This document shows positions 31,781 to 53,129 of a stretch of 64,000 nt of DNA, in pieces (the stretch's first letter is position 1; the number at the start of each line of letters is the position of its first letter). The notes beneath the pieces were generated by a model. It had not been told where the DNA came from. It saw only the letters and a list, made by a program, of their open reading frames with translations, and did no database searches. The position numbers and the translations under genes are program-made. The DNA is taken from positions 1-64,000 of the forward strand of contig JAKIUF010000001.1 in assembly GCA_021647705.1 (NCBI GenBank), in the 5' to 3' direction. Source of the stretch: Gammaproteobacteria bacterium (GTDB taxonomy: Bacteria > Pseudomonadota > Gammaproteobacteria > SZUA-152).

Positions 31781-31854
31781 GTAGGTTGGCGGTGAGCTTG
31801 CGAACCTCAACAGCATTGGCAACGTTGGGGTTCGCAAGCTCACCGCCAACCTAC
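31781..31854. repeat. long hairpin, 31-bp arms
   Basis: Left arm 31781-31811 (starting GTAGGTTGGCGGTGAGC) and right arm 31824-31854 pair at 30 of 31 positions around a 12-base loop. Shorter relatives with the same GTAGGTTGG opening occur at 33801 and, degenerate, near 480. It is a REP/MITE-like dispersed palindrome rather than a terminator, as no T-run follows. Confidence 0.8.
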
Positions 31855-31908: not shown

Positions 31909-32165
31909 TAATGTGAATTAAGTGCTAAAAATATCCCGGAAAATAAAATCATTGGCTTGTATTCAGCAGAACAGACCATCCCCTGCTATGAATCACAGTG
32001 TCATAAAATCGAACGCAAAGAAGCGGAGACACAAAGAACACAAAGCGATTTTTTGTCCGTTATCCTCTCATCCTTTGCGCTCTCTGCCTCTCCGCGCCTT
32101 TGCGTTGGATTTTCATTACCCGGACTCTGCTGTATATGTTGAAAACAAGGCAATTTAGCCCTTAA
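31909..32165. repeat. dispersed intergenic repeat, copy 3, with internal palindrome
   Basis: Same order of blocks as 11675-11850. It contains an inverted repeat at 32005-32114 whose arms begin AAAATCGAACGCAAAG and end CCTTTGCGTTGGATTTT; related palindromes are at 33899-33986 and 57102-57187. Non-coding; the short open frames across it are shadows. Confidence 0.65.
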
Positions 32166-33898: not shown

Positions 33899-33986
33899 TA
33901 AAATCTAACGCAAAGGCGCGAAGGTGCAGAGAACGCAGAGATATGTTTTTTGCCTGTTATTCTTTGCGTCTTCGCCGTGGATTTTA
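33899..33986. repeat. CTTTGCG-type palindromic repeat
   Basis: Left side AAAATCTAACGCAAAGGCGCGAAGG, right side TTCTTTGCGTCTTCGCCGTGGATTTTAG: an imperfect inverted repeat like those at 32005-32114 and 57102-57187. Its right end supplies the stop codon of the ABC ATPase gene (TTA at 33984-33986), so the element was inserted at, or has replaced, the end of that gene. Confidence 0.65.
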
Positions 33987-34664
33987 GTCGTCTTGATCGC
34001 CATGCTGTGAGTCACGTATGATCTTTCCATCATGAACCGTAACGACTCTTTGCGCATATGAAGCAATAGAAGCATCATGGGTTACAATAATCAACGTTTT
34101 CCCCTGCTGATGTAGCTGGCAAAACATATCCATAATATTCTTCCCGGTTTTACTGTCCAGATTTCCTGTGGGCTCATCTGCGATGATGATGTTCGGGTCA
34201 TTGGCCAAAGCCCGGGCAATAGCAACGCGCTGACGCTCTCCCCCGGAGAGTTTATTGGGTAAATGGGAGGCGCGATCAATTAAGCCGACTTGCGCTAGCA
34301 GTTGAAAAGCATTCTCTTTCCTTTTTTGTCGCGGGAGTTTTGCATATGCCATCGGCAATGCCACATTCCGCCATGCATTTAAACGTGGAAGCAGGTTAAA
34401 GTTTTGAAAGACAAAACCTATTTCACGTAGCCGAAGATTGGCCAGCTCAGTTTGTGTTAATGCTTTTACATCCTGCGATAAAAATGTCATGTGACCCGTC
34501 GTCGGTTTATCCAAAAAACCGATGATGTTCATTAATGTTGACTTTCCTGAGCCAGATTTCCCCATAATCGCAACAAATTCACCTTGTGATATGGAAAGGC
34601 TTGCATCTTCCAGCGCATGCAGTTTTGGCGGGTATATTTTGCTTATGTTTTCTAATTTAATCAT
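33984..34664 (-). CDS. ABC transporter ATP-binding protein, MacB/LolD type
   Basis: A 226-residue ATPase with Walker A (GKSGSGKSTLM), Q-loop (FVFQNFNLLPRL), signature LSGGERQRVAIARA, Walker B IIIADEPTGNLDS and H-loop VTHD. The motif set and length fit the stand-alone ATPases of type VII (MacB/LolD/FtsE-like) exporters. It starts 40 bases after the permease gene and is the last gene of the exporter operon (C39-TolC, adaptor, permease, ATPase). It should power the mechanical cycle that pushes periplasmic substrate through the adaptor and TolC. Its 3' end lies in a dispersed palindrome, so the last residues may be altered. Confidence 0.9.
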   Translation of the reverse strand: MIKLENISKIYPPKLHALEDASLSISQGEFVAIMGKSGSGKSTLMNIIGFLDKPTTGHMTFLSQDVKALTQTELANLRLREIGFVFQNFNLLPRLNAWRNVALPMAYAKLPRQKRKENAFQLLAQVGLIDRASHLPNKLSGGERQRVAIARALANDPNIIIADEPTGNLDSKTGKNIMDMFCQLHQQGKTLIIVTHDASIASYAQRVVTVHDGKIIRDSQHGDQDD

Positions 34665-34704: not shown

Positions 34705-35898
34705 TTATTCATAGCGCAAGGCCTCTACAGGCGAAAGTTTAGAGGCATAAGCTGCCGGGTAAAGTGAGAAGAAAAGCCCGACGCCAGAAGAAAATACTAA
34801 CGCAACGATAATGGCTGACCAGGATATTTTTACGGGGATTTCCATCAGTTCAGCGACCACCTGTGCGCAGGCAATACCAAAAACAGTGCCGACTACGCCA
34901 CCGAGAACACACAGCATGACACCTTCCAGTAAAAATTGATGGAGAATACTTGCATCAGTGGCACCAATCGCTTTTCGTATTCCAATTTCTTTGGTTCTTT
35001 CTTTTACAGTGACTAACATAATGTTCATTATGCCGATTCCGCCAACGAATAATGACAAGCTGGCAACACCTGTAATAATCAGTGTTGTTTGCATAATGAT
35101 CGCTTTTTCGCCCTTTAGCAGATCGGTCATGCCTTTGACCCAGTTTTTGCTTGTTTCACCATAAATCTGCCGAAGCACAGACTTAACTTCTCCAATGCTT
35201 TTTTCTACCGCATAGTCTTTATCAATGGTCAAATAAACGGTATCCAGAAACAGATAGGGCCACTCTTTTTTCATCACCGTGTATGGTATGTAGGCTTGTT
35301 CCGGCTTCGCATTATTCTGTAATGGCGGTAGATCATTCACAATACCGATGACTTTATATCGTCGGCCATCAATAATGATATTCTGGTTAAGAATGTTCTT
35401 CCCATTGGTTGACAGGCGTTTTGCGGCGGATTTGCTCAGCACACAAACCCGTTTTTTATGTTTTTCCTCGAAAACTGAAAAGTAGCGTCCGGAAAGCACT
35501 TCAAGATTTCGAACAATTTGATAACTGGGATATGTGCCATTGATAAAAAATTTGATGGACTTGCTTTGGTATTTGAAGCGGCTGTTTATGCGTAAAACAG
35601 GGGAGATGGCTTCAATCGCCGGAATTTTCTTTTCCAATGTTGCAATTGCTTTTAAATCGACAAATGTTGGCATCCCTGCAAGTATTTTTCCATCATCAAA
35701 TTCAGAGTTTTGCAACGTGATGGCGAGAAGATTTGCTCCCATCATTTTGATTTTATTCTGAATGACTTCCCGGTTTCCTTCTCCAATGGCAATGACGATA
35801 ATGACTGCGGCAATACCGACGACGATACCAATTGTTGTTAAAAAACTGCGCAACGGATTGGCAACAATATTCCATAAGGCAATTATTACTGCTTCCAT
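34705..35898 (-). CDS. MacB-type ABC permease (FtsX/MacB_PCD)
   Basis: A 397-residue permease. One N-terminal membrane helix (PLRSFLTTIGIVVGIAAVIIVIAIGEG) precedes a ~230-residue periplasmic domain of MacB_PCD type. The FtsX core follows with three helices (LIITGVASLSLFVGGIGIMNIMLV, GVMLCVLGGVVGTVFGIACAQVV, IIVALVFSSGVGLFFSLYP) and the KEIGIRKAIGATD coupling segment. The permease is split from the ATPase, unlike E. coli MacB. Proteins of this family move substrates from the periplasm, not the cytoplasm, through a TolC channel, which fits a Sec-exported precursor and a periplasmic C39 domain. A 44-base gap separates it from the adaptor gene. Confidence 0.9.
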   Translation of the reverse strand: MEAVIIALWNIVANPLRSFLTTIGIVVGIAAVIIVIAIGEGNREVIQNKIKMMGANLLAITLQNSEFDDGKILAGMPTFVDLKAIATLEKKIPAIEAISPVLRINSRFKYQSKSIKFFINGTYPSYQIVRNLEVLSGRYFSVFEEKHKKRVCVLSKSAAKRLSTNGKNILNQNIIIDGRRYKVIGIVNDLPPLQNNAKPEQAYIPYTVMKKEWPYLFLDTVYLTIDKDYAVEKSIGEVKSVLRQIYGETSKNWVKGMTDLLKGEKAIIMQTTLIITGVASLSLFVGGIGIMNIMLVTVKERTKEIGIRKAIGATDASILHQFLLEGVMLCVLGGVVGTVFGIACAQVVAELMEIPVKISWSAIIVALVFSSGVGLFFSLYPAAYASKLSPVEALRYE

Positions 35899-35942: not shown

Positions 35943-37436
35943 TTAATCCGAGGGGATTTCTGGAAAGGCTGCAAAATCTCCCTCGGCGTCATTGAAGTCA
36001 GGAAAGTCTTTCGGGTTGATAATGTTAATAGAAAATGATGAGCCATCGTCTTTAACCGATTGTCCACTTATATCACCCTGGTGATTGAAGGCGTCCCCAA
36101 ATTTTTTAAACATAGCATTTTCACCAGCAGTAAAAATCTCTGGATCATCATGTACCGTAAAATTTTGGTCGGGGGAGGACTCTGCGACAGCAATAATTCT
36201 ACTACCATTTTTGATGCCAATATTTCCTGTTGTAATCACTCTGTCGTCCACGCTGATCCCATGTACAATTTCGACATATTCGGTATCACTTAAACCGGTT
36301 TGCACGTATATTTTTTTAGCAATGCCTTGGTTATCGTTATACACAAATGCATTGCCACTTTCTTCGAGAATAGACTCTATGGGAAGTACCAGCTTATTTT
36401 TACTTTCAGCCACGATAATTTCTGCTTCAGCTTCAGTACCTAATTTCAAATTACTGGGTTTACTACCAATGATATTTGCGGTGACTTCGATGATATTGGG
36501 GCTGTCCCCACCAAAGACAGCCTGTTTTTTAATGACTTCCATGCCAATATCATTGACCCGGCCAGTGAGTACCTGTCCGTATTCTTCAAGATAAATTTCT
36601 ACTGTTTGACCGACGCTAACACGCGCAATGTCATAGGTATCAATTTGAAGCTTAACCTGCATTTTCTCAGGGTTAGCGATGCTCATGAGCGCTTCTTTTT
36701 CTCCAGAAGAGTTGTTATTGAGTTTTTTTCTGAGTTTAATCACTTTTCCATCAAATTCGGCGCGCTTGACTAGGTCGCGTTCTTTTTCAGCCAGCTCGTC
36801 ATATATGATTTTGGCTTTTTCATAAGTCAGTCTGGCAACCTTTACATCTACCACTTGTTTGTCACGTAACCTGTGAAGATTGGCTTGTTCTCCGGTGTAA
36901 CGTAGTTCCGCTTTTTTCAACTGTATGGTTGCTTCTTCATAGCGTTTAAAGGAAATTGCTTTTGCGTTAAATAGCTCCTTGGATACTTCTGATTCTTTTT
37001 GTTGTTTTTCATATTCAATTTTTGCCAATGTCATTTCTCGATTAGCAGTAACAATACTTTCTGACTCTTCTCCGCGCTCCAGTTCCTGAAGTTTATATTC
37101 TGCGGTGATCATATCCATTGTAGCGCTATTTTTTTCTTTTTTGATTTTATGGTCTTTTAGCGTGACTAGCGGTTGACCTTTTTTTATTTTTTCGCCTTGT
37201 TTGACATGAATTGTTTTTATATCATTAATGTCTTCCACCCATATTTCACTGTTTTGAGCAGAAATTATTTTCCCTCGTCCTTTTACCTTTTGCTTGATAT
37301 CCTTGAAAATAGCTGAAACGGTGACGACCTGAGGAATGTCTTCATCGGGGCTCATGTTTGAGCTAAAGCTCGGAATATAATAAATCAATACGGCTGATAT
37401 AATTAAAAATACGGCACTGATAATTATTTTTTTCAT
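35943..37436 (-). CDS. HlyD/MacA-type periplasmic adaptor with acidic C-terminal tail
   Basis: A 497-residue membrane-fusion protein. An N-terminal membrane anchor (KKIIISAVFLIISAVLIYYI) is followed by the lipoyl/barrel half (KGRGKIISAQNSEIWVED), a long coiled-coil hairpin (~100-230), the returning lipoyl half (GKVIKLRKKL...), the beta barrel and the membrane-proximal domain. It should link the MacB-type permease to the TolC domain encoded 6 bases upstream. The final ~75 residues, past the usual end of the family, are acidic and Asp/Phe-rich (DFPDFNDAEGDFAAFPEIPSD) and predicted disordered. Such a tail is not typical and might bind the substrate or the C39 domain. Confidence 0.87.
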   Translation of the reverse strand: MKKIIISAVFLIISAVLIYYIPSFSSNMSPDEDIPQVVTVSAIFKDIKQKVKGRGKIISAQNSEIWVEDINDIKTIHVKQGEKIKKGQPLVTLKDHKIKKEKNSATMDMITAEYKLQELERGEESESIVTANREMTLAKIEYEKQQKESEVSKELFNAKAISFKRYEEATIQLKKAELRYTGEQANLHRLRDKQVVDVKVARLTYEKAKIIYDELAEKERDLVKRAEFDGKVIKLRKKLNNNSSGEKEALMSIANPEKMQVKLQIDTYDIARVSVGQTVEIYLEEYGQVLTGRVNDIGMEVIKKQAVFGGDSPNIIEVTANIIGSKPSNLKLGTEAEAEIIVAESKNKLVLPIESILEESGNAFVYNDNQGIAKKIYVQTGLSDTEYVEIVHGISVDDRVITTGNIGIKNGSRIIAVAESSPDQNFTVHDDPEIFTAGENAMFKKFGDAFNHQGDISGQSVKDDGSSFSINIINPKDFPDFNDAEGDFAAFPEIPSD

Positions 37437-37442
37437 GATATT

Positions 37443-39476
37443 TTACAGGGAGTCTGTTCCTAGTACACCGACGGCTTTGGTTAATTCAATCTCTGATAGC
37501 TTGTAATCGACCAGCGCACTGAAACGGTCAACTTTTAATTGCAGGAGTTCCAGTTGTGTTCGCTGTAAATCGTTACTGGCAATAACACCGCGGCTAAACC
37601 GTAATTCATCAATGCTCAAATTTTCTGCCGCAAGTTTTAGTGTTTTTTCAAGAATTTCATACCGTACTTTGGTGGATTGTAAATTTCTTATTGCTTCATT
37701 GACTTCGAAGGAAATCTGGTCTTTTGTTCGTCTTATGCTGACGGAAAGATCAAAAATCCGGGATAATATTTGTGCTGTTCGGCTTTTTGTTGTGCCATTG
37801 TCATTAAGAGGAATGGTGACAGTTGCACCAATCCGCCAGGAGTCTTGCTCAATTCCATTTAAAGCTCCATTGAAGCGAGGTTGTTCTCCTCTGCGTCGAA
37901 ATGAGGCATTCAACGATAGCGATGAGTCGTCAGTGCTTTTCGCATCAGACAAATCAAGGTTGAGGTTTTCTCTTGCGTAAAGAAAATGCTTCAATTCTTT
38001 TCTTTCTTTTAGTGCTTTATTGATCATATTGTTTTGGTCAACATCTATGGGGCTATAATTGATATCTTGTACAGGATTTATGTGCTTCACGTTGGACTGC
38101 CCGATCAGTATAGCCAGTTGCTCTTGTGAAGATTTATAACTTCGTTTCGCATCAATCAGGTTGCTTTGGTCTCTGGAAAGCTGTACTTCCATTTTTGATG
38201 CCTCAATTTCGGCTAAATTTCCCAACTTAAATTGGATTTTTGCAGTTTCTAGCTGCTTCTGGGTTTGTTTGAGGTTTTCCTCGGTAAATCTTACCAGTTG
38301 CACGGCTTTGACAAAATTATAATAGCTGCCAATGACTTCAAAAATGATACTTTGTTGATCAAGGTCATACTGGTTTTGTGCGGTGCGCCAAGTATTGAGT
38401 GACCTTGACAAGGGAGAGTATCCCGCAACACGCCCATCTTTTGTCAGTGGTTGTAAATAGTCAATACGAATGCCGGGTCCTAGTGTATATTTTTTTTCGT
38501 TTTGTCCTGGGGTGGAGGGATCATTCATCGCGACGCCGATATCTACCGTAGTGGTCAATTTTCCGCCCAGTTTGCTGGAAACTAACTTATCCATTTTCCA
38601 TTGATATTTTGCTTCATTTTGGGTTGTTGTATTGAGCGTTCGATTAGCATCTATTTCATCTAAATTCCTGCTGGCAGAGAAAACCAACTCGGTTTTGGGT
38701 GTGTAGTTAGCAAATACAGAGTCAAGCTGTGCCTGGCTGAGTTTTAACCTCTCTTCTGCGGCTTTAATGGCGGTACCATCGGAAAGCGCCATTTCCACGG
38801 CTTTTTTTAAGGATAGTGCCAGGCCTGATTTTTGTGGGATAGATGATGTGGGGGGAAGTGCAAATGATGAGGTTTCCAGAGTTTGAGTGGGGAAGGCTAA
38901 AACAATTCCATCCCATATTGTAGAAAAGTCTTCTCTGCTGTGTGTGGCTTTTCCTGTTCCAGGATCGAAAAAAGTAACGGTTTTTGCATCGCTTGCCAGG
39001 ATCACCACATAATGACTATCACTAATATAAGCAAGAACAGGGTTTTTCTCTTGTATCAGGCGTGCCCAGTTCCAGCGCTGCCCTTTTGTTTTTACGCCAA
39101 GAGATTCTGCGGATTGTTTTAACCCCAGCAATGTGGTTCCCACGTTCATTTTGGTTCTGGACAGTTTTGCCAGTTTGTCTTCTGTGATTTCTATATCATA
39201 GCGTGACAGTATGAAACGTAAGGCTGCTGGGCCACATGTCCATGAGGTTGTTTGTAAAAAAGGCGTGTAGTCCGAGTGCTGCGATATATTTTTATTATTG
39301 GTGAATGCCGGGGCCGACGTAAAAGTTATATTTTCAGATGATGGTCTTATATCAATTTGCGTGTCAGCATCGGAAAAACCTGAAGTAATAAATAATACCA
39401 AAAATATAACTGGGGACTGAAAAGCATCGCCGAACCTAGCGTATTTCATGATAAATTGAAAATAATTATTAAACAT
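37443..39476 (-). CDS. C39 peptidase-TolC fusion outer-membrane protein
   Basis: A 677-residue fusion. A Sec signal (hydrophobic SPVIFLVLFITSGFSDA, to ~37) is followed by a C39 peptidase domain (~68-195) with all expected residues: oxyanion Gln75 and catalytic Cys81 (FLQTTSWTCGPAALRF), His155 (DSHYVVILA) and Asp171 (FFDPGTG). After a Pro/Ser linker, ~220-675 is a TolC-type outer-membrane efflux protein with two repeats (LKKAVEMALSDGTAIKAAEERL..., and the second half from MINKALKERKEL). C39 domains normally sit on the cytoplasmic N-terminus of bacteriocin ABC exporters and cut after a double-glycine leader; here the domain would be periplasmic, at the channel entrance. It is the first gene of the exporter operon. 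An alternative start at ATG 39449 gives a shorter signal peptide. Confidence 0.88.
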   Translation of the reverse strand: MFNNYFQFIMKYARFGDAFQSPVIFLVLFITSGFSDADTQIDIRPSSENITFTSAPAFTNNKNISQHSDYTPFLQTTSWTCGPAALRFILSRYDIEITEDKLAKLSRTKMNVGTTLLGLKQSAESLGVKTKGQRWNWARLIQEKNPVLAYISDSHYVVILASDAKTVTFFDPGTGKATHSREDFSTIWDGIVLAFPTQTLETSSFALPPTSSIPQKSGLALSLKKAVEMALSDGTAIKAAEERLKLSQAQLDSVFANYTPKTELVFSASRNLDEIDANRTLNTTTQNEAKYQWKMDKLVSSKLGGKLTTTVDIGVAMNDPSTPGQNEKKYTLGPGIRIDYLQPLTKDGRVAGYSPLSRSLNTWRTAQNQYDLDQQSIIFEVIGSYYNFVKAVQLVRFTEENLKQTQKQLETAKIQFKLGNLAEIEASKMEVQLSRDQSNLIDAKRSYKSSQEQLAILIGQSNVKHINPVQDINYSPIDVDQNNMINKALKERKELKHFLYARENLNLDLSDAKSTDDSSLSLNASFRRRGEQPRFNGALNGIEQDSWRIGATVTIPLNDNGTTKSRTAQILSRIFDLSVSIRRTKDQISFEVNEAIRNLQSTKVRYEILEKTLKLAAENLSIDELRFSRGVIASNDLQRTQLELLQLKVDRFSALVDYKLSEIELTKAVGVLGTDSL

Positions 39477-40276: not shown

Positions 40277-41161
40277 GTGCCACATAAAAATTCGACAAAA
40301 CTATCCCACAAAGAGCGTGTTAATACTATTATTGAGTATATTGACGTACACATTGAAAATCCTGCATGCCGACTGGATTTGGACACATTGGCTAGCGTAG
40401 CCTGCCTTTCACATTATCATATTTCCCGAATTTTCAAGTCGCATACCGGCGAAGGAATTCACCAGTACGTTAAAAGGTTGCGTTTAGAAAATGCGGCTAA
40501 ACAGCTTTTATACAGCAAAAAAACAATTCAACACATTGCGGAATTAAGCTCATATAATAATTTCCCAGCATTTACAAAAGCCTTTAAACAACACTTTGGA
40601 TGTCCGCCCAGCGATTTTCGAGAAAGAAAAAATATAGTTAATTTTCATGATATATATCCTGTTCATACCGAAAGACCGGTAAAAGGTAAAAATATTATTG
40701 ATATGCAAACAAAAAATTTACCTGATCAAAAAGTGGTCTTTATGCTGAAAATTGGTCCTTATGAGGATGCTGCAAATCGTGCCTGGGCAGGTTTAATGCA
40801 ATACGCCTATTCTCAACAGCTCATAACCAGAGAAACAATAAATATTGGCATTACGTACGATATGCCTGAATTCACACATGAAGAAAAAATTCGCTATTGT
40901 GCTTGCATCACAATCGATCATAATCACAAAACACAGGGGGATATTGGTACAAAGTTAATTTCGGGTGGCCGCTTTGCAACTTTTATACACCAGGGACCGT
41001 ATGCAGAATTATGTTACACATATGATTACATATATAACGATTGGTATTCCAAAAATAACGTTACTCTCAGTAATCATCCCAGTTTTTCAATTTATCTCAC
41101 CGACCCAACAAAAGTCGATCCTGAAAATTTACTTACGGAAGTTTATGTGCCGATTGAATAA
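40277..41161 (+). CDS. AraC-family regulator with GyrI-like effector domain
   Basis: A 294-residue protein starting at GTG 40277 behind GGGAGGGGGAA. Residues ~15-115 form the AraC/XylS double helix-turn-helix (LDLDTLASVACLSHYHISRIFKSHTGEGIHQYVKRLRLENAA; IAELSSYNNFPAFTKAFKQHFGCPPSDFR). Residues ~140-294 are a GyrI/Rob-like small-molecule-binding domain (KIGPYEDAANRAWAGLMQYA, GGRFATFIHQGPYAEL, VYVPIE). Rob- and SoxS-like members activate efflux genes in response to ligands. Lying divergent to the exporter operon, it is the likely local regulator; the ligand is unknown. Confidence 0.85.
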   Translation: MPHKNSTKLSHKERVNTIIEYIDVHIENPACRLDLDTLASVACLSHYHISRIFKSHTGEGIHQYVKRLRLENAAKQLLYSKKTIQHIAELSSYNNFPAFTKAFKQHFGCPPSDFRERKNIVNFHDIYPVHTERPVKGKNIIDMQTKNLPDQKVVFMLKIGPYEDAANRAWAGLMQYAYSQQLITRETINIGITYDMPEFTHEEKIRYCACITIDHNHKTQGDIGTKLISGGRFATFIHQGPYAELCYTYDYIYNDWYSKNNVTLSNHPSFSIYLTDPTKVDPENLLTEVYVPIE

Positions 41162-41280: not shown

Positions 41281-42426
41281 TTATTCATTAGATATTGTTA
41301 CCCAGTGTGGAAAATTATTATTTAACCCCTCATTTGTTAACCGTTTTGGGCCTTCTTTTTTGTTGATGGATAATTTCCATATGTCAGCATAAGGTTCTTC
41401 CCGAAGAAAACTTTTTGGAATGTTTTTAAAGTCTGGAATGTCTTCAGGAAGATATTCATGTTTGTGCGCATCTCCAGGGTAGTGCTTATCTTCTGATAAA
41501 TTATGATTTCGCAAATGGGTTGCATTTATTCGGCTATATGTAAGATATTGGCTATCTGGGGACCAAGTCGGTGAAAAATTTACATCGCCTTCCTCAGTTA
41601 ATCGCCTAACCAATTCTCCATCCTGATTGGCCAAATAGATGTTGCCTGGACTGGCGTCCATATATGCTAAAAATCTACCGTCCGGGGACCATTTTCCCAA
41701 TATTCCATTATCAATAAAGAATGCCTGATTTGAACCATCTTCATCCATCGTGAACATTTGCCATTTTTCGTTACGATTGGTCGTGAAAAGTATTTTTTTG
41801 CTGTCTTTGATGGTGCCTGGGGCGCTATTAACCACATTTTTTTTCGCAAAAGTCAGTTGTAGAGGTTTTGATCCATTAGTATTCATCACCCATATATCGC
41901 TTTCTGTTGCTGTTAACATGTTTGTTATGGGGTCGCTGAATATTTTGCTGCGGGTGAAATATATTTTGTTTCCCGACAGAGACCAGACTGGGTCAGAGTC
42001 CATTACCTTTCCGCTGGTTAATTGTTTGAATTTTCCTTTTTTATATAACCATATATGACTATTTAGCCAATCAGTGTTGTGGTTTTTATTGGGTGAATGA
42101 TCTGGAGAAATTAACAATAATTCACTTTTTCCAGGTGATGCCTGGATGGAGAATATGGATTTCCCTTCAATTATGGGTATGCCGTCATTACCATTTTCTG
42201 TCATGGCCTTGATGGTAAAAATCTTCTTTTCTTTAGAGGTAAGGGAACTATTGTAGGACTCAGAGATATAAATAATATTTTTTGTTTTGGGGATGTTTTC
42301 ATTTATAACTTTAAAAAAATATTCTTTATCGTCATTCGGTTGATCAGCAAAAAGGGTAGGGCTAAGTAAAAATAAAGCTATTACTAAAATCCCGGGTGTA
42401 TAAGTATGGATTAATTTGTTTGTCAT
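41281..42426 (-). CDS. TolB-like periplasmic beta-propeller protein
   Basis: About 381 residues from ATG 42426, which opens a signal peptide (MTNKLIHTYTPGILVIALFLLSPTLFA); an upstream in-frame ATG at 42522 would bury it. The body holds WD40-like PD40 blades: SDPVWSLSGNKIYFTR, KKILFTTNRNEKWQMFTMDEDGSN, LGKWSPDGRFLAYMDA, FSPTWSPDSQYLTYSRI and NNFPHWVTI. TolB-type propellers bind proteins or peptides in the periplasm. It lies between the candidate precursor peptide and the exporter on the same strand as both, so a role as chaperone, carrier or immunity factor for the exported peptide is possible but unproven. Confidence 0.72.
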   Translation of the reverse strand: MTNKLIHTYTPGILVIALFLLSPTLFADQPNDDKEYFFKVINENIPKTKNIIYISESYNSSLTSKEKKIFTIKAMTENGNDGIPIIEGKSIFSIQASPGKSELLLISPDHSPNKNHNTDWLNSHIWLYKKGKFKQLTSGKVMDSDPVWSLSGNKIYFTRSKIFSDPITNMLTATESDIWVMNTNGSKPLQLTFAKKNVVNSAPGTIKDSKKILFTTNRNEKWQMFTMDEDGSNQAFFIDNGILGKWSPDGRFLAYMDASPGNIYLANQDGELVRRLTEEGDVNFSPTWSPDSQYLTYSRINATHLRNHNLSEDKHYPGDAHKHEYLPEDIPDFKNIPKSFLREEPYADIWKLSINKKEGPKRLTNEGLNNNFPHWVTISNE

Positions 42427-42926
42427 ATTTTTACTTGTTTTAATTGTTGTTTTATTCAATAGGGGATTTATAGGCTGCGGGAAGTTAATTCTAAAGTTGT
42501 ATTTTTGTGGTTTAAATTTCACCCGGCAAGATGGGTGCTTGTATCTCTAGCACGAATTTCTTGCAAGTCTAATTGTTTGGTTTTCAAGGGTGGGATAATT
42601 ATTTATTTTTTATGATGATATAAATGCCCCGCTCAAAAAATAATAGTGGTAAATATAAAGGAAAAAAATCGTGTTTTTCTTCCTTTTCATGAAAAACATC
42701 ATGTTTTTTAGGATGGCTTAACAAAGTTTTTCAATATCATACCTTCTGATGGTTTTATAAAAGAAGAGTCAAGAAAAAGAAGTCAATAATCTTAACAAAT
42801 AAAATATTAATATCCTCTTCCTGACCCTGATGGACTGCCGGGTTTATTTCATGTGTCGCATGATAACTGCACTTTAATTTCTATTTTTATTCAGTTAGCA
42901 GAAACAAACCTATCCGTTACCTATGC
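42427..42926. other. intergenic, AT-rich
   Basis: 500 bases between the propeller gene and the precursor peptide gene. AT-rich with no recognised gene or clear terminator; a promoter for the propeller gene is likely here. Confidence 0.35.
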
Positions 42927-43289
42927 TTAACATCTAAGGCCAATGCTGTAATTCGGCATGTTGAATTGTCCTTGACGAAACACGTTTCCTCGACACCATA
43001 CCTGAATAAACTGTCCAGCATTAATGTTATGTCCTCCGATGTTATACCATTGGCCACTAGGCAGTGTGGCTTGATGTGGTGGGTGAGAATTACTGTCAGC
43101 TTGGAAAACTTGTGTCCCTGAGGTGGAAATACTCCAATATATTTGGCCTGCACCAACAGCGGAAATCATTTCCTGTGAGTTGAGGTTTTGAACCTGTGGC
43201 ACTTGGTCATTCATGTTTGAGGCAAAAGTCGTCGATGCGCCAGCTAAAGATAAAGCCATTGTAAATGCAAGAGCAGTAAGTTTATTCAT
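42927..43289 (-). CDS. candidate double-glycine-leader peptide precursor with Sec signal
   Basis: A 120-residue protein with a strong AAGGAGAG ribosome-binding site. Residues 1-23 are a Sec signal peptide (MNKLTALAFTMALSLAGASTTFA). Residues 24-47 then resemble a double-glycine leader: relative to a cut after Ala47 there are Leu at -12, Asn -11, Glu -8, Met -7, Gly -2 and Ala -1 (LNSQEMISAVGA). The remaining 73 residues (48-120) are rich in Gly, Asn, Gln, Ser and aromatics, with two cysteines (99 and the C-terminal 120) that could form a disulfide. It is most simply a secreted bacteriocin-like or signalling peptide matured in two steps, with the second cut by the periplasmic C39 domain encoded at 37443-39476. 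No homologue is recognised; a non-peptide-toxin secreted protein remains possible. Confidence 0.7.
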   Translation of the reverse strand: MNKLTALAFTMALSLAGASTTFASNMNDQVPQVQNLNSQEMISAVGAGQIYWSISTSGTQVFQADSNSHPPHQATLPSGQWYNIGGHNINAGQFIQVWCRGNVFRQGQFNMPNYSIGLRC

Positions 43290-44436
43290 TGTTTGTCTCT
43301 CCTTGATTTAACTACTAGCATGCCCAAAAAAGTGGGCGATATATTACAGCGGTTTTTAACCCTCTGTATAACTGATGTAATGTTGATGCTTTCCATGCAA
43401 GGCCACATTCGTCAATGTAATTTTATAGAAAACTTCATATCTTCAGTTACGTGGATTATGGTAGAAATTATTTTATAGAATGACAATAAATCTAACTTAT
43501 CCATTCGTGCTATGTTTTTATAAATGATTAAAAATAATTCAAAATTTACTTTTTTATTTATAATTTGGGGGGGGGTGAAAATGGCTGGTTCATTTTCGTA
43601 ATCTTTGGTTGAGTGTTTCAGGTGATTATTGATAGTGTGATTTAATGGATGACTTTATAATTTATGTAATGCTGCGTTAATAGTTTTGGAAAAAATGTGG
43701 TAAGAGAAATAAATAACTTAAACGTAATGCTTTATATGTTTGTAATATTGTTCGTCGGCTGTAAGGGGGATGAACTGATGGTTTTCTTTATTGCTTAGTT
43801 TTTGATGTTCAGGGTAAATGTCTGTAAATGTATAAATAATAAACATGGAGGATGACGGCTATATTTATTCATCAAAGATTTCAGGTTGTCACAGGCATTT
43901 TTTTCATTGAAAATTGTATGCTTTGTTTTTATACAACTATTGGCTTGATAGTTCATGTAAAACGGTTGTGCTAATTAAAAAGGTATGTGTTTGACGATTT
44001 AAAAAAATAATAATGTGAAATTACCACCGTTGCTTAATTGTGGATTATGATAGGCCGTTTTTGTTAGTGTTTTGTCACTGAAATTGCCGTGTTGTGGAGG
44101 CGGGAGTTGCAGAGCTGCAAGGGCGGCCAAGAAAAATCCTTCAAATAATACTCGTCAAAGGCACTGTTGGTTGCGGCTCATCCCGTAATGAGTAAATATC
44201 TCAGGGAGTTGCGCGGCTTGGTTTTTGGGTGCAGTGGGCAAATACTTATGTTGACAAATTTCCTGTACTTATTTAATTTCCTGTACCTATTGAAAAGGGC
44301 AACGGTAAAGTAAGCTGGTTATCTGCGTTCATGTGCAGGTATACGCAGGAGGAGGGAGGTGTTTTATCTCATCCAGTGGACCTGAAGGTGGATTTTTATA
44401 ATTTGGCGGTCATCAACACACATGCTGCAATATTGA
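43290..44436. other. AT-rich intergenic region
   Basis: About 1.15 kb without a supported gene. It contains a G9 run at 43567-43575 and two direct copies of AATTTCCTGTAC at about 44258-44285. The promoter of the precursor gene must lie at the left end. The composition contrasts sharply with the tRNA/rnr region that follows, so this is probably the edge of the acquired segment. Confidence 0.4.
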
Positions 44437-44523
44437 TGGTGCCCAGGAGAGGACTTGAACCTCCACGGGGTTTCCCCCACTAGCACCTGAAGCTAGCGTG
44501 TCTACCAATTTCACCACCTGGGC
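44437..44523 (-). tRNA. tRNA-Leu (anticodon CAG)
   Basis: The minus strand folds as a class II tRNA. The acceptor stem is GCCCAGG/CCTGGGC with an encoded ACCA end, the D arm contains GGTAGACAC, the anticodon stem is GCTAGC with loop TTCAGGT (anticodon CAG), a long variable arm follows, and the T loop is GGTTCAAGTCC. It reads CUG leucine codons. tRNA-Leu genes are frequent integration sites, and the AT-rich block lies directly beyond its 3' end. Confidence 0.95.
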
Positions 44524-48714: not shown

Positions 48715-48880
48715 TATATACCCGTAGCGTTTGGGATTTAGGTTTAAGTGTGCGTCATATTTTCTCCATGGCAAGGCAAAATGACGCGGAATAGTCGTTC
48801 TATTGCAAGGAGTTTCAACGCAGCCATGGGGTAAATAGGGCGTATAATTAGACCTAAATCTCAATCGCTACGGGTATATA
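48715..48880. mobile_element. MITE-like element with ~30-bp terminal inverted repeats
   Basis: A 166-bp element bounded by TATATACCCGTAGCGTTTGG (left) and its near complement (CGCTACGGGTATATA) at right; arms of about 30 bp pair with few mismatches. Inside is a second inverted repeat, GCGTCATATTTT / AAAATGACGC. A half copy lies at 53636-53700. No coding capacity, so if mobile it depends on a transposase elsewhere. Confidence 0.65.
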
Positions 48881-49007: not shown

Positions 49008-52000
49008 TTGAAGAGGTGTATGTCAATAAAAACGGTGCGTCCCAGTTTTCGGCATGTGTATTTTCGTGAGCGTGTGTTTAACGAAATTGACCAACAATGC
49101 GATTATCCAATGATCTGGGTAGAAGGTCAACCAGGATGTGGAAAAACTACGTTGATTAGCTCATATCTGGAAAAAATTAATGGTAATTATCTTTGGTACC
49201 GAATCAGCGAATCAGATAACAATCTAGTTGAGTTTTTATACCGGTTTTCATCTGCATTGAGTGACTTTTTACCAAAAAGCTCACAATCACTTCGTATGTT
49301 ATCTCTACCTTTTCAGCCTGAACCTGAATCTTTGTTTAAATCCATGTTTAAAGAACTTCACCAAAATATTTCACCGCCTTTTTATCTGATATTTGATGAT
49401 TTTCATTTAATATCCAATAACGATTTTCATAATATGTTAGTTGAAGCTTTAATCCCAATGGATGTTGGGAATATAAATATATTCATTATCAGCCGTCATA
49501 AACCCGCCGATCCATATTCCCGACTTAGAGCCCGACAAAAATTCTCACGACTCGGAAAAAAATATTTAGACTGGAGTGAGGATGAGGTTATTGCATTAAC
49601 CCAAATGTTATCGGATGACGAAAAATCCAAAGATCTGGGTAAAGCTTTTTTTGAAATCACGCATGGCTGGGTATCGGGTGTGATATTGCTTATTGAAATG
49701 CTAAAAGAAAAATCTTCCACAGTAAGTAGTGTCACGCTACTTGATAAAAGTTTTCTATTCGAATATTTTGCCAGTGAAATATTTTCAAGCATGAGCGAAA
49801 CTACCCAGAAACTATTAATTAAAGCCTCTTTTTTTAATGAGGTGGATGTAAAGCAAAGAAAATTTTTACTTGATAAAAAAAGACTGAAAACGGTTCTTGA
49901 AGAATTGTGTAACCGAAATTATTTTGTCAACGATAACTATAATAATAAGTCTGTTTATACATTTCACCCGCTATTTAAAGAATTTTTGCAAAAAAAATCA
50001 TTTTCTTACTTCAGTAAAGATGAGTTAAATGAATTCAGGAATGAAATGGCTCATTCTCTGTGCAGTGCCGCTCACTACGAGCGTGCTATAGAATTATATC
50101 TTAAGGCTAGCAATTGGGAAAAAGCAGCTCATATTATTATTCAGCAGGCGGATATTTTGTTTTCCCAAGGAAAAATGCCTCTCATTTTACATTGGATCAA
50201 ACAATTTAACAAGGATGCTTATAATAAATATACTTGGCTACATTACTGGGAAGCGATGTGTTACCTAGCCACAGATCAAAATAAATCTTATTCAATGCTC
50301 CTCAATATCTTTAAAAAATTTCAACAAGAAAGAGATTTAAACGGCGAATATTATACCATTTGCAGCTTGCTGGAATCCATTGTTTTCAGTTTCAATTATT
50401 ATGATAGATTAATCCCCTGGATTGATATTGTTACTGAAAAATATAATAAAAACATCAAGCCAAAAAATATTGTGTTACAGGTAAGATTAGCTGCCAATAT
50501 GCATACAGCATTACTTTTTAGTAATCCAACACATAAAGACCTGGAGAAATGGGAGAAAAATGTTTGCTACCTTATGAAGGTTTTAAAAATTACGCTTAAT
50601 AATGATCATTGTGTATTGGTTGGCATCAATCTTTTTTATCAATATTTATGGAGTGGAGAAAAATCAAAGGCGGAAAAAATTATTAAAATAACTCACATTG
50701 ACAAATTTAGCGGGACATCGAACCCGGTCAGTCAAGGTGCTTGGTATGTCATGGTTTCGGTAAATGCATGGATGAACGGTGATGCAAATAAGGCAAAACA
50801 GGCCGCTGATGACGGATTAAAAGTCGCCGAAGAGAGCGGAATTTATTTTTGGTTTGATCTACTTTTGTTACAAAAAACATATGCCTGCCTTATCAATATG
50901 GAATTAGAGGAAGCACAGGGTCTACTAACGATTGTTGCACGTCGTGAAAATGCTGATTCTCAACTTATTGCCTCAATGTATTATGATGCATACAGTCAAT
51001 GGGAATATTTACAGGGGGATCTTGATAGCGCCCTCGAACATAAAAAACTCTGTATGATTGAAATTAATAAAATGACCATGCCTTATGCTATTCCAGGGTA
51101 TCGGCTGGGATTGGCAGAAATTCAAATTGCACGCGGAGAATATAAGCAAGCGAAAGACAGTTTGATATTATCGCGTAAAGAATGTGAAAAAATGCGCAGC
51201 GATATTTATCTTTATCGTTGCAGTTTACTGGAGTCTCAACTTTCTATTGAAACCGGAAATAATGTTGACGCAATAAAACATATGACAGTGGCCATGGGCT
51301 TAGCGGAATTCAGAGGTTTCGAAAGCCACCCCTGGTGGAACGCAAAAAATATTTCTTTGTTGTATGAATTTGCGCTCAAAGAAAATATCAATACAGATTA
51401 TGTGATTCACTGTATAAAAAAACGTAATTTACAGGTCAATATCCATTTGATTGAATATGAAAACTGGGATTGGCCTGTTAAGATTTATACTTTCGGTAGT
51501 TTTCGTATCATTATCAATCACATTTTGCTACCTCTTACCGGAAAATCTCAACGTAAACCCTTAATTCTTTTAAAGGCTCTCTTGTCTTTCGGTATGTGGC
51601 GCATCAGCCAATCTCACTTGGCTGGAAGGTTGTGGCCGGAAGCAGATGGTCCAGAATCGCTGCAAGCACTTTACGTTAATACTCACAGGTTAAGGCGTCT
51701 ACTGGGTACCAAATCCATTTTGGTTAAAGATGGTTATATTGGGCTAAACCCTGAAATAGTCTGGGTTGATGCCGGGCTGGCAACATACTATGTTGCTAAA
51801 CTCATGGATGCCCTACACAAAAAACCAACCGTCCAAAAAAAATCGAAGTGGGGAAACAATTTGCTGAATTTATATGCCGGGAAATTTCTTGAAAGTGAAC
51901 AAGATGATGTTTGGTGTTTCCAGTATAGTGAAGAGTTACACAATAAAGTACTGACCAGTTTAAAGCTATATGCTGGCTACCTCAGTGAACAACATCAATA

Positions 52001-52232
52001 TGAAAAATCTTTAGCGTTGCTGAAAAGAATAACTCAACTGGATATTCTGGATGAAAAAATATATCAGGATCAAATAACACTATTAATTTCACTTAAACGA
52101 TACCCGGAAGCAATTACTGTTTATAATGAATGCAGGAGTTTGTTATCCCGAGTTCTTGGCGTTATGCCTTCCGCCACTTTATCATCGCTGTTAAAGGATG
52201 AATTGCATAAAGAGAAAACAACCAATCATTAA
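49008..52232 (+). CDS. large STAND-type transcriptional regulator with BTAD output domain
   Basis: A 1074-residue regulator. TTG 49008 is chosen because AAGGAG lies 6 bases upstream; ATG 49020 is the alternative. The N-terminal AAA/STAND ATPase has Walker A EGQPGCGKTTL (39-49) and Walker B FYLIFDDFH (125-133), MalT-like. Residues ~350-800 are helical repeats of TPR type. The C-terminus combines a winged helix (~828-920, IYTFGSFRIIIN...HRLRRLLG) with a bacterial transcriptional activator domain (BTAD, ~930-1070, ending YPEAITVYNECRSLLSRVLGVMPSATL). Such proteins activate target promoters after ATP and ligand binding, often for secondary metabolism or carbohydrate genes. The DNA is AT-rich. Nearby candidate targets are the secreted protein at 52524 and the peptide-export locus. 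Confidence 0.82.
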   Translation: MKRCMSIKTVRPSFRHVYFRERVFNEIDQQCDYPMIWVEGQPGCGKTTLISSYLEKINGNYLWYRISESDNNLVEFLYRFSSALSDFLPKSSQSLRMLSLPFQPEPESLFKSMFKELHQNISPPFYLIFDDFHLISNNDFHNMLVEALIPMDVGNINIFIISRHKPADPYSRLRARQKFSRLGKKYLDWSEDEVIALTQMLSDDEKSKDLGKAFFEITHGWVSGVILLIEMLKEKSSTVSSVTLLDKSFLFEYFASEIFSSMSETTQKLLIKASFFNEVDVKQRKFLLDKKRLKTVLEELCNRNYFVNDNYNNKSVYTFHPLFKEFLQKKSFSYFSKDELNEFRNEMAHSLCSAAHYERAIELYLKASNWEKAAHIIIQQADILFSQGKMPLILHWIKQFNKDAYNKYTWLHYWEAMCYLATDQNKSYSMLLNIFKKFQQERDLNGEYYTICSLLESIVFSFNYYDRLIPWIDIVTEKYNKNIKPKNIVLQVRLAANMHTALLFSNPTHKDLEKWEKNVCYLMKVLKITLNNDHCVLVGINLFYQYLWSGEKSKAEKIIKITHIDKFSGTSNPVSQGAWYVMVSVNAWMNGDANKAKQAADDGLKVAEESGIYFWFDLLLLQKTYACLINMELEEAQGLLTIVARRENADSQLIASMYYDAYSQWEYLQGDLDSALEHKKLCMIEINKMTMPYAIPGYRLGLAEIQIARGEYKQAKDSLILSRKECEKMRSDIYLYRCSLLESQLSIETGNNVDAIKHMTVAMGLAEFRGFESHPWWNAKNISLLYEFALKENINTDYVIHCIKKRNLQVNIHLIEYENWDWPVKIYTFGSFRIIINHILLPLTGKSQRKPLILLKALLSFGMWRISQSHLAGRLWPEADGPESLQALYVNTHRLRRLLGTKSILVKDGYIGLNPEIVWVDAGLATYYVAKLMDALHKKPTVQKKSKWGNNLLNLYAGKFLESEQDDVWCFQYSEELHNKVLTSLKLYAGYLSEQHQYEKSLALLKRITQLDILDEKIYQDQITLLISLKRYPEAITVYNECRSLLSRVLGVMPSATLSSLLKDELHKEKTTNH

Positions 52233-52523: not shown

Positions 52524-53129
52524 TTAAGGAGTGGCGTCTATATTAAGTGGGAAGTCAATTCCACTAAAAGTAACTTTTTGTGCGGCATTTGATCGCTTGA
52601 TTTTAACTAAAAAGTGGTATAAACGGTCTTTTCTTAATGAATGATTTAGAGGGATAGTTTTTGTTGTGTTGGTTAAAATGCCGGGAAGACACAGGGAGCC
52701 AATATCTCCAGCTGTCCACGATGTCCATTTGTTACCCACTGACTGCATTCCTCCTGTATTACGATAGCGTAACTGTACTTGTACACCCATAAGACTTGAG
52801 CAATTATTCGGATCTTTATAATATACCCGGTAAGAGGTCATTCGCATAGTAGGGTTATTCCATTTTTGAGTATTCAAGCTGACACCTGACTTCCAACCGT
52901 TTAAAGGTAATGCACAAAGTAATGATGCAGTTCCTATTTTGTTGTTTTTAAAAACATATGCGCCATTTTTGATAGTGACTTTATCGAGTGTTTCACTATT
53001 TGCAGGCAAACAAGCATTTGCAGGTATTGTGTAGGCCGCTAGATTAACGTCATTTGCAAATGCTATAGATGAAAACAATGACGTGCTTATTACTAATGCA
53101 CCAACAGTTTTTTGGTTGAGTATATACAT
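52524..53129 (-). CDS. small secreted protein of unknown function
   Basis: 201 residues with a strong AAGGAG ribosome-binding site before ATG 53129. The signal peptide ends IAFA (residue 25). The mature part has five cysteines, is rich in Asn, Thr and Ser, and has beta-strand character (MRMTSYRVYYKDPNNCSSLMGVQVQLRYRNTGG). I do not recognise a family. It is convergent with the BTAD regulator, shares its AT-rich composition, and is a plausible regulated product. No double-glycine-type leader is present, unlike the peptide at 42927. Confidence 0.65.
   Translation of the reverse strand: MYILNQKTVGALVISTSLFSSIAFANDVNLAAYTIPANACLPANSETLDKVTIKNGAYVFKNNKIGTASLLCALPLNGWKSGVSLNTQKWNNPTMRMTSYRVYYKDPNNCSSLMGVQVQLRYRNTGGMQSVGNKWTSWTAGDIGSLCLPGILTNTTKTIPLNHSLRKDRLYHFLVKIKRSNAAQKVTFSGIDFPLNIDATP

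Follow-up and report, generated by a model that had tools for sequence, protein, structure and literature searches.

We analysed a stretch of 64,000 nucleotides (the window) from contig JAKIUF010000001.1 of a Gammaproteobacteria bacterium (assembly GCA_021647705.1, genome G000 below), in which a small gene on the minus strand (42927..43289) lies about 3.5 kb from a gene that fuses a C39 peptidase to a TolC-like channel. The small gene encodes a protein of 120 amino acids that appears to be a precursor with two consecutive targeting sequences, a Sec signal and a double-glycine-type leader. It starts with ATG and ends with a stop codon at 42927-42929; a Shine-Dalgarno-like AAGGAGA, read directly, stands ahead of the ATG (43298..43304, minus strand), as it does in the two homologues inspected (in genome G008 and on contig C58 of genome G007, written G007:C58). 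The coordinates and frame given in the initial annotation hold: the frame is intact in another seven family members (38-65% identity), and the proportion of nonsynonymous differences (pN) was below that of synonymous ones (pS) across the whole gene in all eight pairs examined. The protein had no match in Pfam or PHROG; its sole match in NCBIfam, to the signal region of Spy, was judged meaningless, and the best match by sequence in the PDB had an E value no better than 0.5. Promoter-like sites were rarer than in shuffled sequences, and terminator-like sites were equal to them.

The precursor can be divided into four parts, all on the minus strand. Residues 1-23 (43221..43289) form a Sec-type signal peptide, as judged by eye from the n-, h- and c-regions and from hydrophobicity. 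A basic n-region and a hydrophobic h-region (maximal 12-residue Kyte-Doolittle mean 1.9-2.7) are present in all eight members of the family, and the signal ends in TFAS or SFAS in five of them and in SFSS in three. Past the presumed signal-peptidase cut (23/24) there remains a putative pro-leader of 24 residues (24-47; 43149..43220), which has the same length as the leader of CtA, the substrate of PCAT1. Its last twelve residues (36-47; 43149..43184) are the motif LNSQEMISAVGA, assigned by identity and column conservation, with L(-12), E(-8), M(-7), G(-2) and A(-1) relative to the predicted cut. The remainder (48-120; 42930..43148) would be the mature protein, which has 73 amino acids and a mass of 8170 Da when reduced. 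Its two cysteines, Cys99 and Cys120, are invariant across the family, in agreement with the mature part proposed initially.

Double-glycine leaders are understood to be read in the cytoplasm by an ATP-binding cassette (ABC) exporter. For the peptidase-containing ABC transporters (PCATs), passages of PMC6959990 give the consensus L(-12)XXXE(-8)L(-7)XXXXG(-2)G(-1) and a length of 24 residues for the CtA leader, report that substitution of L(-7) or L(-12) greatly weakens binding, and describe in the PCAT1-CtA structure a hydrophobic knot formed by the residues at -7 and -12, with specificity at -4. The form L(-12)xxxE(-8)[LM](-7)xxxxG(-2)[GAS](-1) was found in every one of the eight family members. 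None of them deviates from L at -12, Q at -9, E at -8, M at -7, S at -5 or G at -2, while position -1 is A in six members and S in two. Residues 36-47 are the best-conserved region of the family, with a mean pairwise identity of 0.78, compared with 0.58 for the signal, 0.55 for the spacer and 0.50 for the mature part. We searched for homologues lacking the leader, which would have spoken against it, and all eight keep it. A relaxed pattern, L[SNT]xxE[LM]xxxxG[GAS], is present at the corresponding alignment position of 8/8 members and was seen only 0, 3 and 10 times in 200,000 shuffles of residues 24 to the end of three of the proteins; given this rarity and the conservation, we set aside the possibility that the motif arose by chance. 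Type-2 lantibiotic leaders are another class cut by C39 peptidases, and leader-only peptides from three of the four members tested (the window copy not among the three) weakly matched models of them (E 0.011-0.1 for TIGR03893 and 0.007-0.09 for PF16934, the register of the matches not being displayed).

The mature parts diverge, from 34% identity up to identical sequences, and their net charge ranges from -3 to +13. The full precursor gave a poor structure model (predicted local distance difference test score, pLDDT, 41). Residues 48-120 alone gave a best model with seven strands, pLDDT 86.6 and a predicted template modelling score (pTM) of 0.72, which would fit a domain beginning near the predicted cut. 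Matches to this predicted fold were at background level (Foldseek E at least 0.07 against the PDB and at least 0.025 against BFVD), and the best VIA match, a transthyretin-like protein, had Z 7.4, under the level of Z 8 regarded as common. Since these matches are weak and point to a common type of beta-sandwich, we draw no function from them. The identical pair is formed by G000:C30 (locus L002) and G007:C55 (L009), in which all 73 mature residues agree and the signal and spacer differ; both genes lie upstream of carAB-like genes, as judged by eye.

The precursor family was found in 5 of 96 genomes searched around that of the window, all five from the same genus, with two copies in G000, three in G007 and one each in G003, G004 and G008. 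The second copy in G000 lies on contig C30 and is 38% identical. When a profile of the eight members was run over 369 genomes of the class, with 12 or fewer candidates scored per genome, it recovered the two copies of G000 and no credible further member; seven weak matches had E 0.006-0.05, five of them interrupted by stops. A scan of genome contigs returned L010, taken as the G007 copy, and a Pseudoalteromonas lipoprotein signal, which was a false match.

The C39-TolC fusion and the exporter block

The fusion protein (37443..39476, minus strand) is 677 amino acids long and matches PF03412 over residues 73-195 (E 4e-25) and PF02321 (E 9e-33). As seen from alignment to PCAT1 (4ry2), its C39 domain (38892..39260, minus strand) has Cys81, His155 and Asp171 at the catalytic places, and the orthologue in G008 has Cys78, His152 and Asp168. 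The TolC-like outer-membrane factor part begins at about residue 220 (37446..38819, minus strand); it is recognized by PF02321, scores below the cut-off of TIGR01844, and matches TolC chains in the PDB at E~1e-6. The N-terminus of the fusion is hydrophobic and signal-like, and this, together with the attachment to TolC, points to probable export of the peptidase across the inner membrane.

In G000, PF03412 found the fusion and, below the Pfam cut-off, a protein of the PA2778 family. No C39-ABC exporter was detected with this model in G000 (96% complete) or in G008, both of which are incomplete genomes. With no cytoplasmic exporter of this type detected in G000, no evident reader of double-glycine leaders other than the fusion remains there. 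Nor does the fusion itself have the architecture of a PCAT, in which a single protein holds the C39, the transmembrane and the nucleotide-binding domain: here C39 is carried by TolC, and the ABC genes are separate and MacB-like.

We compared the C39 domain with those of other peptidases in a tree of 16 stretches, recovered by sequence pattern from 30 loci tried. Seven of the eight loci of stand-alone C39 proteins were entered, and L100, where no FapE-like neighbour was in view, was left out. The fusion domain grouped with FapD peptidases (support 86/84), on long branches. Against the FapD model NF058616 the fusion reached 44 bits, short of the cut-off of 330, and its matches to the NCBIfam models for FilB and the PA2778 family were weak (3.7e-5 and 0.0075). 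A search for C39-TolC proteins in the 369 class genomes (threshold E 1e-14, no more than three candidates scored per genome) returned the copy in the window, a 97% fragment on G201:C175 and seven matches to the TolC part only, in frames of 446-503 amino acids; a plasmid search gave one weak match, also to the TolC part. A search of the class with C39 only gave matches in 20 genomes, G000 included; for the 19 others the open reading frames were read at 11 loci, the rest being judged by frame length only. In the literature searched, which includes passages of PMC3223724, PMC3897388, PMC5557850, PMC5985334 and PMC8277102 and leaves most subscription papers outside it, there was no recognizable description of a C39-TolC fusion or of a MacB-linked C39 peptidase.

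Contig G201:C175 (L070, 1-9607) belongs to a genome of another family and carries the exporter genes of the genus together with a mutS-like gene, as judged by eye. Because its matching stretches have 93% and 97% DNA identity to the window, we take it as probably misbinned.

Downstream of the fusion, on the same strand, lie genes for an HlyD/RND-type periplasmic adaptor (35943..37436; PF13437, TIGR01730), a MacB-like permease with the periplasmic core and FtsX domains (34705..35898; PF12704, PF02687) and a MacB/LolD-like ATPase (33984..34664; PF00005). The permease and the ATPase matched the MacB model with E 4.5e-60 and 6e-75, respectively, each under the full-length cut-off. Thus, a permease with MacB core and FtsX domain, an ATPase, an adaptor and an outer-membrane factor, all the parts of a tripartite pump, are present, with ATPase and permease as two separate genes, unlike the single polypeptide of E. 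coli MacB. Between exporter and precursor there are two further genes. One, on the plus strand (40277..41161), encodes an AraC-type regulator with a GyrI-like effector domain (PF12833, PF06445) and is kept in the G008 block. The other (41281..42522, minus strand) encodes a TolB-like beta-propeller with a signal-like N-terminus (PD40; TIGR02800 below cut-off), the likely start of which is an internal ATG at residue 33, near 42426.

G008 has all seven genes of the block in unchanged order, with protein identities of 48-88%. No open reading frame of at least 100 amino acids flanking the block in the window had a match in the 20 kb of G008 that were examined, nor did any flanking the block in G008 match the window; the neighbour of the block is RNase R in the window, and G008 has NAD kinase there. 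Since the order is kept and the flanks differ, the association of precursor and exporter has been preserved at two chromosomal sites. In the genus, for which 12 genomes were covered, the close permease (86-100% identity) and the TolB-like gene were found in the same three (G000, G007 and G008), and these three are all among the five that carry the precursor (10/220, calculated by hand; the genomes are incomplete). The TolB-like gene, for which 13 genomes were searched, lies near a precursor in each of the three. G007 at first seemed to lack the system. We dropped this impression because contig C17 of G007 carries the permease (98% identity) and breaks off within the gene for the adaptor, and contig C58 has a precursor next to RNase R, the arrangement also seen in the window. 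The missing fusion of G007 is most simply explained by a gap in the assembly.

Several minor features surround the block. A tRNA-Leu gene (44437..44523, minus strand; ARAGORN) lies between it and the RNase R gene. To the left of the exporter genes there are strong inverted repeats at 31781-31854 (31 nt, 97%) and 32005-32113 (41 nt, 80%), the former with further matching copies in L069 and L070. Besides the block, the G008 locus has one 167-base stretch in common with 48717-48880 of the window. The block edges, examined for repeats, showed no clear insertion element.

A proposed two-step maturation route and its alternatives

The initial annotation held that the protein passes through Sec and then presents a double-glycine leader in the periplasm to the nearby C39-TolC fusion. 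The intact catalytic triad, the signal-like N-terminus of the fusion, the failure to find a C39-ABC exporter and the synteny at two sites support this reading, which passes the computational tests applied to it. We consider it probable that the precursor is matured twice, with Sec export followed by periplasmic removal of the leader by the C39-TolC fusion, and that the product then leaves through the same channel, driven by the MacB-type pump. The Sec signal would take the precursor to the periplasm, where signal peptidase would remove residues 1-23. The protein would then probably fold and form its disulfide there. The leader (24-47) would dock by L(-12), M(-7) and the residue at -4 on the C39 domain, at the periplasmic part of the channel, and C39, whose catalytic residues are intact, would cut at the motif, after Gly46-Ala47. 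The released 73-residue protein would finally be pushed through the same TolC channel by the HlyD/MacB-type pump encoded in the block. In genomes with two or three precursors, which share leaders and differ in their mature parts, one exporter would serve all. Such sharing by scattered precursors would also account for the copies that lie away from an exporter.

If correct, this would be a different secretion logic, in which Sec acts first and a peptidase attached to TolC reads the leader on the periplasmic side. Folding and disulfide formation could then precede the unmasking and export of the protein. As its role we regard competition or interaction by a secreted protein as the likeliest, with the TolB-like propeller as a candidate accessory or self-protection factor; this suggestion is weakly supported. 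The results speak neither for nor against the bacteriocin or signal proposed in the initial annotation.

A number of observations weigh against the proposed route. The orphan copies are the first: G003 and G004 (73% and 86% complete) carry a precursor without the close permease or C39-TolC, and PF03412 gave no match in the former and a PCAT-like match in the latter. The precursors G000:C30, G007:C55 and G007:C154 are likewise away from the exporter. (G000:C30 is at a contig start, the G003 and G004 copies are near contig ends, and the G007:C154 precursor is followed by a TolB-like gene.) The fusion was seen only in the genus and on the one probably misbinned contig. Its C39 domain scored slightly nearer to exporter-type models (2.6e-13 for the NHLM type, compared with 1.1e-11 for FapD), so that a periplasmic ancestry rests on the long-branched tree, and its best matches in the class were proteins of 942-948 amino acids. 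The leader of the window copy is not a perfect one either. The initial annotation had counted -11 among its matching positions; -12, -8, -7, -2 and -1 do fit, and N(-11) departs from the usual leader, as does A(-4), where six of the eight members have S(-11) and V(-4). No leader model matched the window copy's leader-only peptide. Finally, the good model of the mature part was one of five, the other four having pLDDT 55-70.

The alternative that we take most seriously, while still regarding it as unlikely, accepts Sec export and periplasmic cleavage, with both of which it is compatible, and differs in the fate of the product, which would remain on the cell surface or in the matrix as a subunit with a structural or adhesive role, like FapE in Fap fibres, and not act as a free bacteriocin or signal. 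The placement of the fusion with FapD in the tree is in line with this, as is the small predicted beta-sandwich with its background-level transthyretin- and adhesin-like matches. However, there was no FapE match in G000 at E 1e-8, and the better parallel is a pump of the MacB type that carries a soluble substrate. Somewhat less probable still is that the protein is an ordinary small periplasmic one exported by Sec, in which LxxQEMxxVVG[AS] is kept for another reason, the C39-TolC fusion serving some unseen substrate. The orphan precursors described above are in line with this, and the mature domain is predicted to fold alone. Yet the C39 recognition register is present in 8/8 members and better conserved than the mature part, the precursor stands beside the exporter at two sites, and a profile of the leader only, run over the 12 genomes of the genus, revealed no other credible substrate: beyond the eight known members it gave seven matches with E 0.15-1.7.

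Two further explanations concern the reading of the leader itself. C39 might bind it as a docking tag or chaperone and make no cut, as the C39-like domain of HlyB does. Passages of PMC8277102 describe inactive C39-like domains in type 1 secretion, but here Cys, His and Asp are all present, both in the fusion and in G008, and position -1 is always A or S, which leaves this explanation little weight. We give the least credence, and very little of it, to the idea that the hydrophobic N-terminus just lengthens a leader on which a PCAT acts in the cytoplasm. The motif is of the type of PCAT substrates, and G004 has a PCAT-like gene. However, PF03412 detected no PCAT in G000 or G008, both incomplete, and instead of a leader at the very N-terminus every family member has, by eye, a Sec-signal-like N-terminus.

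The Fap parallel and other known systems

On one point the initial annotation overstated its case, as dual targeting of this kind does have a parallel: FapE-like proteins beside the periplasmic C39 peptidase FapD are arranged similarly. Passages of PMC5557850 describe FapD as a periplasmic C39 peptidase with a Sec signal, the Cys of which is needed for amyloid secretion, and FapE as the only Fap protein found by mass spectrometry to miss an N-terminal region; they state that the Fap proteins lack canonical C39 sequences and point out GG and GA motifs in FapE. A passage of PMC6173800, from 2018, describes FapD's substrate as 'yet to be determined'.

At the loci of stand-alone C39 proteins read here we found neighbouring Sec-like proteins that contain a stretch of the type LSxxELxxxRG[KR]. 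Five of the six such neighbours scanned against NCBIfam matched FapE and the four peptidases scanned matched FapD, all below the curated cut-offs (74-281 bits for the four FapD-like proteins, where NF058616 requires 330). A search for FapE in the 369 class genomes yielded 16 proteins in 15 genomes (L108-L123), none of them over the NCBIfam cut-off. All 16 have a Sec-like N-terminus followed by a leader in the double-glycine register. For this comparison the leader was anchored on RG[KRG][FYN], with G set at -2, and where several sites occurred the one with a hydrophobic -7 was preferred. L, V or I at -12 and L or M at -7 are present in 16/16, M, L or I at -4 in 15/16 and E at -8 in 10/16; position -1 is K or R, in contrast to A or S in the precursor family. 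The overall form can be written [LVI](-12)...[LM](-7)..[MLIQ](-4)RG[KR], followed by [YF]. A FapD-like sequence pattern, which is short, was present in the same locus for 14 of the 16. The register of these leaders predicts FapE-like proteins as the substrate of FapD, and the site of the cut; they would thus be a concrete candidate for the FapD substrate question. We found no paper naming a FapE leader of this kind in the literature searched, part of which consists of passages only.

The FapD/FapE pair resembles the system of the window in its periplasmic C39 peptidase, its neighbouring Sec protein and its leader in the same register. It differs in that FapD is a stand-alone protein, FapF provides the channel as a barrel, the products go to amyloid fibres and position -1 of the leader is K or R; the passages on Fap contain neither TolC nor an ABC pump. 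We see about an even chance that both belong to a periplasmic branch of double-glycine maturation, defined by a Sec signal followed by a leader and by C39 outside the inner membrane. Fap would be its more widespread form (FapD reading FapE), and the window its extreme, channel-fused form, in which the cut would be coupled to passage through the channel and release would be powered by a MacB-type pump. A periplasmic C39 peptidase, FapD, is already known; what would be new is the combination of periplasmic C39 maturation with MacAB-type export in a peptidase-channel fusion.

Other systems share single elements with the window. PCAT1/CtA and the class II microcins have the leader consensus, the 24-residue leader and the C39 triad, but the peptidase of PCATs is cytoplasmic and sits on the transporter, whereas in the window it is fused to the outer-membrane channel and its substrate uses Sec first. 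According to passages of PMC5985334, MacB takes periplasmic substrates, and MacAB-TolC exports STII, which is delivered by Sec and disulfide-bonded. The likeness extends to the MacB-type permease, the adaptor, TolC and a small Sec-delivered protein with a disulfide (predicted in the case of the window). As described in those passages, STII has no second leader and TolC no peptidase, and in the window ATPase and permease are separate genes. FilB, from a putative pilus system of Acinetobacter, and the PA2778 family resemble the fusion in being C39-family proteins that are not ABC exporters, and their models differ from it in having no TolC fusion.

The PA2778-family protein of G000 lies on contig C1 (L041 906-2334) beside a small Sec-like protein. 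Pairs of this type also occur at L032, L033, L036 and L037, and a PA2779-family neighbour was seen in two scanned. The small neighbour has an E-E-V...LPAG(x)G-type stretch ahead of a C-terminal hydrophobic segment. Judging from this arrangement, the two may be another periplasmic pair of C39 peptidase and substrate.

Beyond the block, the window contains at 52524-53129 a gene for a 201-residue protein with a signal-like N-terminus and several cysteines, which had no Pfam or NCBIfam match and a weak match to a PHROG of unknown function. It is convergent with a gene at 49008-52232 for a 1074-residue regulator with MalT-like and BTAD domains.
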